This document shows positions 36,352-37,309 of a stretch of DNA of 64,000 nt, in pieces. Position 1 is the stretch's first letter. Each line of letters opens with the position of its first letter. Source of the DNA: Larkinella rosea (GTDB lineage Bacteria; Bacteroidota; Bacteroidia; Cytophagales; Spirosomataceae); assembly GCF_003858635.1 (NCBI RefSeq), contig NZ_RQJO01000007.1, positions 1,427,941 through 1,491,940 of the forward strand. The letters are read 5' to 3'. The translations under genes and the position numbers were made by a program. The notes under the pieces are model-generated. The model made no database searches. It saw only the letters and a list, made by a program, of their open reading frames with translations, and had not been told where the DNA came from.

Positions 36352-36377
36352 ACGCCGGCCTCAACCTGAGCCGGCGT
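36352..36377 (-). terminator. Hairpin terminator downstream of the tRNA-like RNA
   Basis: Eight-bp stem ACGCCGGC (36352-36359) / GCCGGCGT (36370-36377) with a 10-nt loop. On the minus strand it is followed by TGTTTGTT. It lies 112 nt beyond the 3' end of the tRNA-like RNA and would end its primary transcript; it sits upstream of the DUF819 gene. Confidence 0.6.
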
Positions 36378-36420
36378 GTTAAGATTACACTTCATCAACA
36401 AACTAAAAACCAATCGGAAT

Positions 36421-36441: not shown

Positions 36442-36488
36442 CGAAGCCATTAATTTTGATGTGGCTGATCAAAAATCAGACCATATGC

Positions 36489-36647
36489 TGTAGGAGGGGG
36501 ACTCGAACCACCCACGGTGCGGTTAGCTACAGTACAACTTCTGGTGGTCAACCCCAGTCGCTTTTGCAAGCGGCATTATGCTGCGTTTTTCCCGTGATCA
36601 CCACCCCCGAGACAGGAGGGCACGTCTGCCAATTTCGACATCCTACA
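36489..36647 (-). ncRNA. tRNA-like RNA with ~91-nt variable region, anticodon-like GUC
   Basis: Read on the minus strand (n1 = 36647). Acceptor TGTAGGA (n1-7) pairs perfectly with TCCTACA (n153-159); discriminator G; CCA not encoded. U8, A14, G18G19 are conserved and the D arm TCGAAATTGGCAGACGT matches tRNA-Leu in length and loop. The anticodon stem CCCTC/GGGGG (n28-32/n40-44) closes loop CUGUCUC, with U33 and triplet GUC (Asp reading), but U rather than a purine at 37. The T loop GTTCGAGTC is canonical; its stem (n136-140/n148-152) has one U-C mismatch. The variable part (n45-135) has a 9-bp stem with one A-C mismatch (n45-53/n98-106) and, inside, CGCTT-GCAA-AAGCG. Own promoter and hairpin terminator. 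No protein reading. Not a regular tRNA. Confidence 0.72.
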
Positions 36648-36702: not shown

Positions 36703-36735
36703 ACAAAGTTAATGCAAATACTAACTTATTTACAA
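36703..36735 (-). promoter_or_regulatory. Promoter of the tRNA-like RNA
   Basis: On the minus strand TTTG (complement of 36732-36735), 21-nt spacer, TAACTTTG (complement of 36703-36710): both boxes match the Bacteroidota consensus. The start site would be near 36697, about 50 nt before the tRNA-like 5' end. No other minus-strand gene lies between, so it must serve this RNA. Confidence 0.65.
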
Positions 36736-36820
36736 ATTCTTTATTAAAAAAAAGGTAAAATTTCTGTTTTCATAAAAGAAAACTTATTTTGTTGAGGAAA
36801 TTAAAAATTTTACGGTTCAA

Positions 36821-37309
36821 ATGGAAAAAAATTTAGAGATTGACAATATCGATCTCAAAATCCTGACCTTATTGATGGAAGATGCCAATATGGCTTATAC
36901 GGAAATTGGTAAACGAATCTTTGTTTCGGGCGGAACCGTCCACGTCCGGATGAAAAAAATGGAGCAAATGGGCATCGTCCGGGGGTCGCAGCTGGTGATC
37001 GACCACACCAAACTGGGTTGGGACATCAGCGGTTTTCTGGGGATTTACCTGGATAAAAGCTCGCTTTACGAAGACGTGGCCATTGAACTCCTGAAAATTC
37101 CCGAGGTGGTCAACATCCATTACACGACCGGTATTTATAGCATATTTGCCAAAATCGTTTGCCGGGACACCCAACACCTGCGCGAAGTATTACACGATAA
37201 AATTCAGAAAGTGAGCGGTATTCAACGGACCGAAACGTTTATTTCGCTGGAAGAACGCATTTCCCGACCCATTCCGTTCGGCGTTAATGTACAACCGGAC
37301 AAGGACTAA
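36821..37309 (+). CDS. Lrp/AsnC family transcriptional regulator
   Basis: A 162-residue regulator with an N-terminal winged helix-turn-helix (about 8-60; LDLKILTLL-type start DNIDLKILTLLMEDANMAY and VSGGTVHVRMKKMEQMG recognition helix) and a C-terminal RAM ligand-binding domain (about 70-150, with the IHYTTGIYSIFAKIVCRD strand). Such proteins form octamers that sense amino acids. Length typical. It is divergent from the tRNA-like RNA, 170 bp apart. Its target and effector are unknown. Confidence 0.88.
   Translation: MEKNLEIDNIDLKILTLLMEDANMAYTEIGKRIFVSGGTVHVRMKKMEQMGIVRGSQLVIDHTKLGWDISGFLGIYLDKSSLYEDVAIELLKIPEVVNIHYTTGIYSIFAKIVCRDTQHLREVLHDKIQKVSGIQRTETFISLEERISRPIPFGVNVQPDKD

Follow-up and report, generated by a model that had tools for sequence, protein, structure and literature searches.

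The window analysed here, a stretch of 64,000 nt, encodes a tRNA-like RNA of a new class derived from class II tRNA, a placement supported by its covarying helices, its wide conservation and the lack of any Rfam match. By its sequence, this RNA is an Asp-type loop joined to an Asn-type acceptor end, and it probably serves as a dedicated carrier for the conversion of Asp to Asn, charged by AspRS, amidated by GatCAB and delivering asparagine to metabolism under the control of an AsnC-type regulator.

The RNA is read from the minus strand between 36647 and 36489 (159 nt), or 160 nt when the discriminator G73 at 36488 is included, and C74 is encoded right after it, at 36487. The first-pass annotation had placed a feature at 36489–36647 without giving a strand; the feature is real and its strand is minus. 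The tRNA landmarks listed there are all present, namely a 7-bp acceptor stem, U8, A14, G18–G19, a Leu-type D arm, a 5-bp anticodon stem with U33 and the triplet GUC (loop CUGUCUC, with U37), a canonical T loop and a large insert at the variable-loop site. In window coordinates, the locus comprises the following features.

36488–36647, minus strand: tRNA-like RNA (5′ end 36647, G73 36488), matched by covariance model R1 at 105.2 bits and conserved in relatives
36641–36647, minus strand: 5′ strand of the acceptor stem, UGUAGGA (U1-A72, G2-C71, U3-A70; the lower pairs covary)
36622–36638, minus strand: D arm, Leu-like, with a 3-bp stem (covariation)
36604–36620, minus strand: anticodon-like arm CCCUC-CUGUCUC-GGGGG, loop at 36609–36615 (conservation of U35, C36 and C38)
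36599–36602, minus strand: 5′ strand of the variable-arm stem, GGUG, pairing with CACC at 36516–36519 (100% of cells paired)
36586–36598, minus strand: conserved internal loop, 5′ side, consensus GG.AUAAA, here GGGAAAAA (column conservation)
36527–36585, minus strand: inner variable domain, type A, with a GNRA hairpin at 36557–36573 and the motif GGGUUGACCAC at 36544–36554 (in many members, not in short ones)
36520–36526, minus strand: conserved internal loop, 3′ side, CUAACNG (column conservation)
36516–36519, minus strand: 3′ strand of the variable-arm stem, CACC (covariation)
36496–36513, minus strand: T arm with the canonical loop UUCGAGU and one bulged U in the stem (covariation and conservation)
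36487–36495, minus strand: acceptor 3′ strand (36489–36495), G73 (36488) and C74 (36487); C follows G73 in 124 of 124 copies
36704–36736, minus strand: candidate Bacteroidota-type promoter, TTTG-N21-TAACTTTG (pattern match)
36352–36377, minus strand: intrinsic-terminator-like hairpin (terminator scan)
36821–37309, plus strand: AsnC-like regulator gene, divergent, 174 nt from the RNA (Pfam, NCBIfam, PDB, synteny)

The promoter and terminator that the first reading had assigned to the RNA correspond to plausible candidates at 36736–36704 and 36377–36352. The promoter pattern, built on the Bacteroidota consensus, matches twice in the window against 1.45 matches expected by chance, so the candidate does not stand above chance alone; a similar promoter-like arrangement is visible by eye upstream of the RNA in several relatives. 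Terminator-like sites number two in the 601 bases scanned versus 0.8 in shuffled sequences. Just ahead of the terminator-like hairpin, the window holds a 30-base sequence, TTTGGTTTTTAGTTTGTTGATGAAGTGTAA (36385–36414, minus strand), which recurs with at most five mismatches at 30 of the 85 loci, again 3′ of the RNA. Nearly all of these loci belong to the family of the window; L034 and L036 represent two others.

The fold is that of a class II tRNA, with a 7-bp acceptor, a 3-bp D, a 5-bp anticodon, a 4-bp V and a 5-bp T stem, and these five helices are supported by covariation. Across 22 diverse members, cut to their common core and aligned with the structure set by hand, a 26-pair structure is 96.9% paired and shows changes of both partners at 12 pairs; its covariation score of 0.319 compares with 0.157 for shuffled alignments (0 of 500 reached 0.319) and with 0.085–0.127 for slid partners. 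An alignment of 103 distinct rows from the named-taxon loci, which was fitted to the model and whose loci were found by a pattern fixing part of the anticodon arm, is 97.0% paired with 15 double-changed pairs and scores 0.347 against 0.169. The folding energy of the single sequence is not better than that of shuffles (z −0.13), and the case for the RNA thus rests on comparison. Compensatory changes in the V stem and in the lower acceptor pairs of homologues, proposed in the first pass as a check, are found in both alignments: the V stem GGUG/CACC becomes GGGG/CCCC, GAAG/CUUC or GAGG/CCUC in other members, with two pairs changed on both sides and all cells paired, and acceptor pairs 4, 5 and 7 vary among the 103 rows, unlike the invariant end of the stem.

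The same comparison redraws the variable region. The 9-bp stem first described in the insert is not the one that members conserve; covariation backs a 4-bp V stem, an internal loop and an inner hairpin instead. The internal loop (GG.AUAAA / CUAAC) is conserved where a short V loop would be. The GNRA hairpin is real in the window RNA but absent from short members. The inner hairpin ranges from 2 bp in L039, whose whole RNA measures 108 nt, up to about 100 nt. Support is weakest for the innermost part of this hairpin, where 13 of 22 and 45 of 96 rows leave the second inner pair unpaired, and the middle of the RNA had been removed from most training rows. The motif GGGUUGACCAC occurs in the inner domain of many members. 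The reported D-stem mismatch is a U-U in the window's relatives and a few others, but elsewhere this pair covaries (A-U, U-A, G-C). The T stem is fully paired save for one bulged U.

BLASTN detected the RNA in 43 of the 59 genomes searched, the window's own included, at 72–100% identity, with some distant matches covering only its first 46–72 bases. A covariance model (R1), such as the first-pass annotation had recommended, was used to search 241 genomes from the order and 345 from the phylum and found homologues across Cytophagales and other Bacteroidota. Strong matches are spread over many of the order's families and also occur in the class families f23, f24 and f27 and, beyond the class, in f66. 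The raw R1 tallies of 241/241 and 343/345 do not measure the spread of the RNA; only the stronger matches were counted, so they yield no overall frequency for order or phylum. The weaker matches, mostly 81–86 nt long and scoring no more than about 65 bits, resemble ordinary tRNA-Leu genes, an identity given by ARAGORN at several viral loci and suggested by length and score at cellular ones.

A pattern scan returned at least 80 loci, and Spirosoma, Dyadobacter, Chitinophaga, Mucilaginibacter, Pedobacter, Algoriphagus, Cyclobacterium, Saprospiraceae and one Ignavibacteriales MAG are among the matches listed. R1 gave 105 matches on the 80 loci listed, of which 104 score at least 71 bits; the remaining one, in L194, is weak (44.8 bits). 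Two or more copies of the RNA are present in 27 of 85 loci. Tandem arrays hold seven copies in L046 (genome G203), one of which runs over masked bases, four in L062 and three each in L094 and L097; no AsnC-like gene lies in the fetched stretches of L046 and L062. Some tandem copies (L050, L058, L060, L093) contain the palindrome TCCCGATAGCTATCGGGA or close forms of it, which in L050 spans the D and anticodon arms and looks like a small mobile repeat.

The RNA corresponds to no family that we searched for. ARAGORN, as suggested in the first pass, was run and called no tRNA or tmRNA in the window, and it called none at 12 cellular RNA loci. Rfam at the gathering score gave no match in the window or in 13 loci and, at E values up to 10, unrelated weak matches with nothing relevant among them; the assignment to a known Rfam family that would have spoken against the first reading did not materialise. 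No paper describing the RNA was found in the open literature, a coverage outside which most subscription papers lie. The lack of support for a tmRNA (ARAGORN, Rfam) or a group I intron (Rfam) agrees with what had been seen by eye, and both readings were set aside. The RNA resembles tmRNA in having tRNA-like ends on what looks like a non-decoding RNA and in occurring on viral contigs alongside tRNAs, and differs from it by its anticodon-like arm.

Nine nucleotides (U1, G2, U3, C71, A72, G73, U35, C36 and C38) are invariant among 120 distinct rows, which are those of alignment A3 (124 matches) minus duplicates and one row with N and were not chosen by pattern. Position 33 is U in 110 of these rows and position 34 is other than G in 16, some of which have Glu-type triplets. 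The U noted earlier at position 37 is borne out, with U in 112 rows, C in six and G in two, that is, a pyrimidine in 118 of 120 and never A. When the A5 loci are added, U1-A72 is found in 216 of 217 distinct rows, U3-A70 in 214 and both G2-C71 and G73 in all 217; positions 34–38 were counted from A3 only, the A5 loci having been chosen by a pattern that fixes them. The C that follows G73 in every copy is likewise encoded in 16 ordinary tRNA genes of the genome (by eye). Of the readings offered in the first pass, that of a new RNA class stood, with its origin now placed in class II tRNA, and that of a decayed tRNA retained for another role gave way before the nine invariant positions.

These positions coincide with two sets of reported determinants. 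In its passages on Asp identity, PMC9976931 gives G73, G34, U35, C36 and C38 as the strong determinants; G73, U35, C36 and C38 are present in 120 of 120 rows and G34 in 104. A decoding tRNA-Asp would have a purine at position 37 and G1-C72 as its first pair, and the RNA differs from it at both sites. Amidation of Asp-tRNA is described as conferred by U1-A72 and blocked by G1-C72 and U20a (PMC9976931), U1-A72 is described as the major amidation determinant (PMC4027206), and a small D loop is a reported determinant and U20a a reported antideterminant (PMC4027206, PMC9976931). The U1-A72 pair of bacterial GatCAB substrates is present in all but one of the 217 rows and in 67 of 67 viral rows, and the genome's own tRNA-Asn combines U1-A72 with G73. 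Under tRNA-Leu numbering, the D loop has an extra nucleotide at 20a, which here is A, not U.

Compared with bacterial tRNA-Asp, the RNA shares G34 (mostly), U35, C36, C38, G73 and G2-C71 and differs in having U1-A72 for G1-C72, no A37, a class II variable arm and a Leu-like D arm. The G1-C72 pair is called strictly conserved in bacterial tRNA-Asp, and its replacement here may weaken charging by AspRS. With tRNA-Leu, the RNA shares the D arm, position 44 and the base of the variable arm, and it departs from tRNA-Leu in G73 for A73 (a Leu gene of the genome has A73), the Asp-type loop and the extended variable domain. The Leu-like D arm, the Asp-like triplet and the missing A37 are thus as first seen, and the conflict perceived between them is better taken as a clue to the role of an RNA that looks non-decoding. 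An insert-bearing tRNA-Asp (or tRNA-Leu, or tRNA-Ser), whether functional or decayed, is almost certainly the wrong reading: the Asp triplet, the Leu-like D arm, G73 and the tRNA-Asp calls that ARAGORN makes on 11 short viral forms (90–95 nt) speak for it, but the genome has ordinary tRNA-Asp, tRNA-Glu and tRNA-Asn, position 37 is never A, positions 33 and 34 are not constant, the acceptor end departs from the Asp type and the strict conservation speaks against decay. Charging by SerRS, suggested by the class II fold and G73, was rejected as it leaves the invariant U35, C36 and C38 and the link to GatB unexplained.

The AsnC-like neighbour, the link to GatCAB and the occurrence of tandem and viral copies lay outside the first-pass annotation. 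A gene like that at 36821–37309 lies divergently, 122–281 nt upstream of the RNA, in 62 of 85 loci, including three of f66, and is missing from 23, the 85 loci not being independent since some are near-identical relatives. Among the matches listed, 51 named-taxon loci have the AsnC-like gene, 24 do not and five have too little flank. The encoded protein has AsnC-type Pfam domains; its best NCBIfam model is AsnC (159.7 bits versus a model cut-off of 227), and its best PDB match is 2cg4 (AsnC, 7.5e-33), ahead of an uncharacterised regulator (7.5e-23) and Lrp (3.1e-10). The E. coli asnC and asnA genes are divergent. E. coli AsnC is described as an activator of asnA whose effect is abolished by asparagine (PMC4482635). 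Searching from the protein side, we found a close AsnC-like relative in 19 of 80 genomes of the class (20 loci), with a strong RNA match at 12 of the 20 loci, the window's own included, and none at the other eight. At L125 (genome G047), another sequence, with the complementary ends GGCAGA ... TCTGCC and no Rfam match, occupies the expected RNA site divergent from the AsnC-like gene; this genome has AsnA and GatB and no GlnRS over the cut-off.

We then compared 66 hand-picked genomes, which are not independent, 40 with strong RNA matches and 26 scored as lacking the RNA under strict filters; under such filters G358, from the phylum sample, showed no strong match and then proved positive when its locus was fetched. 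AsnRS is over the cut-off in all 66. GatCAB, scored by GatB only, is present in 40 of 40 genomes with the RNA and in 14 of 26 without it, and GlnRS is over the cut-off in 25 of 40 and 11 of 26, respectively. None of the 14 GatB-containing genomes without the RNA has GlnRS over the cut-off, and GatCAB therefore serves Gln-tRNA there; one further genome without the RNA (G046, 88% complete) has neither GatB nor GlnRS. The 15 RNA-containing genomes that lack GlnRS make GatB uninformative in them. In the 36 genomes with both AsnRS and GlnRS, GatB is found in 25 of 25 with the RNA versus 0 of 11 without it (Fisher 1.7e-9, phylogeny ignored). The same 25 genomes contain no AsnA or E. coli-type AsnB, one or other of which is present in 8 of the 11 (5.5e-6, phylogeny ignored). 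GatCAB has no ordinary job in genomes with both synthetases. A 2014 survey counts such a GatCAB beside AsnRS and GlnRS in 67 (table) or 68 (text) of 547 genera, and its account places Bacteroidetes among the clades also without Asn synthetase (PMC4206432). AspRS is over the cut-off once per genome in the 20 of 20 genomes examined.

GatB was found in 22 of the 72 genomes that belong to the class but not to the window's order, and 19 of the 22 also have the RNA (G358 included). Of the remaining three, G311 has no GlnRS, and G419 and G463 have far weaker GatB matches (about 1e-105 versus 1e-143 or better in the others). The 50 genomes of this set without GatB gave no strong RNA match. In the rest of the phylum, which was scored for GatB and the RNA, GatB often occurs where the RNA does not. 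It is very improbable that the RNA is an unrelated AsnC-regulated small RNA of tRNA ancestry whose link to GatCAB comes from shared descent. Both could be ancestral and lost in the same clades, and the Fisher tests ignore phylogeny, yet all 14 genomes of the hand-picked set that keep GatB but not the RNA are missing GlnRS, and GatB and the RNA are present or absent together within families, five genomes of f23 having both and two neither, and nine of f24 having both and two neither.

The distribution of asparagine synthetases requires more careful reading. We defined E. coli-type AsnB as frames of 549–584 residues aligning to the AsnB model in two pieces; one of them (G272) matches 1ct9 (AsnB) at 829 bits, and the others were classed by length and alignment. 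Over all 66 genomes, AsnA occurs in two with the RNA (G065 and G161, with G045 just below the cut-off) and five without it, and E. coli-type AsnB in 11 without the RNA and one with it (G052, a 514-residue frame); G065, G161 and G052 are exceptions that fall outside the 36. An AsnB-family protein, mostly of about 600–700 residues, is over the cut-off in 35 of the 40 genomes with the RNA, and as this long family is so common we do not claim that asparagine synthetase is absent. The long AsnB-like protein of the window's genome reaches only 155 bits against 1ct9, far from E. coli AsnB, and its gene has sugar-transfer-like neighbours (by eye); those of other RNA-containing genomes could make asparagine. 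Five genomes with the RNA (G012, G029, G041, G106 and G529) have neither AsnA nor AsnB over the cut-off. A separate arrangement was seen at L332 (genome G102), where a 1112-residue frame (L332:4086-7424) joins GatB domains to AspRS-type class II synthetase domains and adjoins an amidase (GatA-like) gene (L332:2635-4035). Judged from its domains, this fusion is possibly a self-contained amidation enzyme, and the weak GatB matches of G419 and G463 may resemble it; the 10-kb L332 stretch holds no RNA of this tRNA-like family.

An Asp-type loop, an Asn-type acceptor end, an AsnC-like neighbour and a jobless GatCAB find their simplest account in a dedicated carrier. The divergently encoded AsnC-type regulator, as its adjacency and homology suggest, would control transcription of the RNA in response to asparagine, and the transcript would be trimmed at both ends and its CCA completed, C74 being encoded as in ordinary tRNA genes here. 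The single AspRS would aspartylate the RNA through U35, C36, C38, G73 and usually G34. GatCAB, to which both the acceptor nucleotides and the co-occurrence of GatB point, would amidate the attached Asp to Asn because U1-A72 marks tRNA-Asn, unlike the G1-C72 of tRNA-Asp. Its unusual position 37 and its outsized variable arm would bar the RNA from decoding, so that no Asn would be put in at Asp codons, and the Asn would be freed for AsnRS and metabolism. The RNA would stand in for AsnA or AsnB and would give GatCAB a job in cells that have AsnRS and GlnRS.

The known tRNA-dependent synthesis of asparagine on tRNA-Asn, described for Bdellovibrio, Deinococcus and Thermus, uses a non-discriminating AspRS and GatCAB (PMC4206432). 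The proposed route shares with it the order of charging by AspRS and amidation by GatCAB, the U1-A72 pair and G73, and the occurrence in cells also having AsnRS and GlnRS. The RNA differs in its Asp triplet GUC, through which a discriminating AspRS could charge it, in its apparently non-decoding character, in its huge variable arm and in having its own, mostly AsnC-linked gene.

Two alternatives keep parts of this scheme. The RNA might be charged and amidated with its Asn (or Asp) then passed to a peptide, lipid or cell-wall precursor, not released as free asparagine, which we consider unlikely. A non-decoding tRNA-Gly serves as donor in some cell walls. The identity nucleotides and the GatB link fit such a donor too, an RNA that looks non-decoding shares this trait with donor tRNAs, and the tandem copies suggest a need for much RNA; against this, no transferase gene recurs nearby, the clustering of neighbours at the 24 loci without AsnC yielding no family in more than four loci, and the AsnC link together with the lack of AsnA and E. 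coli-type AsnB in the 25 genomes fits free asparagine better. Alternatively, the RNA might bind AspRS or GatCAB as a regulator or decoy that tunes their activity by the asparagine level and is not itself a substrate. We regard this as decidedly unlikely, since the 3′ end (A72, G73 and the encoded C74) is conserved as strictly as the loop, which a decoy need not keep, and since the retention of GatCAB beside AsnRS and GlnRS would be left unexplained, even though the conserved large V domain exceeds what charging needs and the AsnC linkage and GatB co-occurrence suit a regulator too.

Copies of the RNA also occur on contigs whose viral status is as given in IMG/VR, a pattern scan of which matched at least 120 stretches. 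The RNA is present in 80 of 80 fetched viral loci, which were chosen by a pattern within the RNA itself; among 67 distinct full rows, G73 is present in all and a GGGUUGACCAC-type motif, in three spellings, in 56. Eight of 38 viral loci scanned have at least 14 tRNA genes, two of them also a tmRNA, and three of the eight (L350, L396, L405) carry ordinary tRNA-Asp and tRNA-Asn besides the RNA. Neither AsnC nor GatB was found in the 80 viral pieces, which cover part of their contigs, and BLAST of an annotated phage collection with viral copies gave one match in one search and none in another. The inner hairpins of viral copies, and sometimes a D-loop insertion, often end in perfect palindromes (by eye; L337, L338, L342, L350 and others), for example CTTGCAAG, TGTGCACA and GCGTACGC, through which two of the RNAs might base-pair. 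Taking cellular and viral copies together, we lean, with less assurance than for the carrier itself, towards a tRNA that has been withdrawn from decoding and turned into a reusable carrier for free asparagine, would replace asparagine synthetase and would be supplied by phages, in some of them beside large tRNA sets, so that infected cells do not run short.

Having been missed by a tRNA gene finder and by Rfam, the RNA is probably unannotated in many genomes. It offers a direct and testable answer to the retention of GatCAB beside AsnRS and GlnRS in Bacteroidota. If the proposed role is true, a tRNA would have been recast as a cofactor for amino acid synthesis, many environmental bacteria would have a new route to asparagine, and the RNA would be one that phages find worth carrying.
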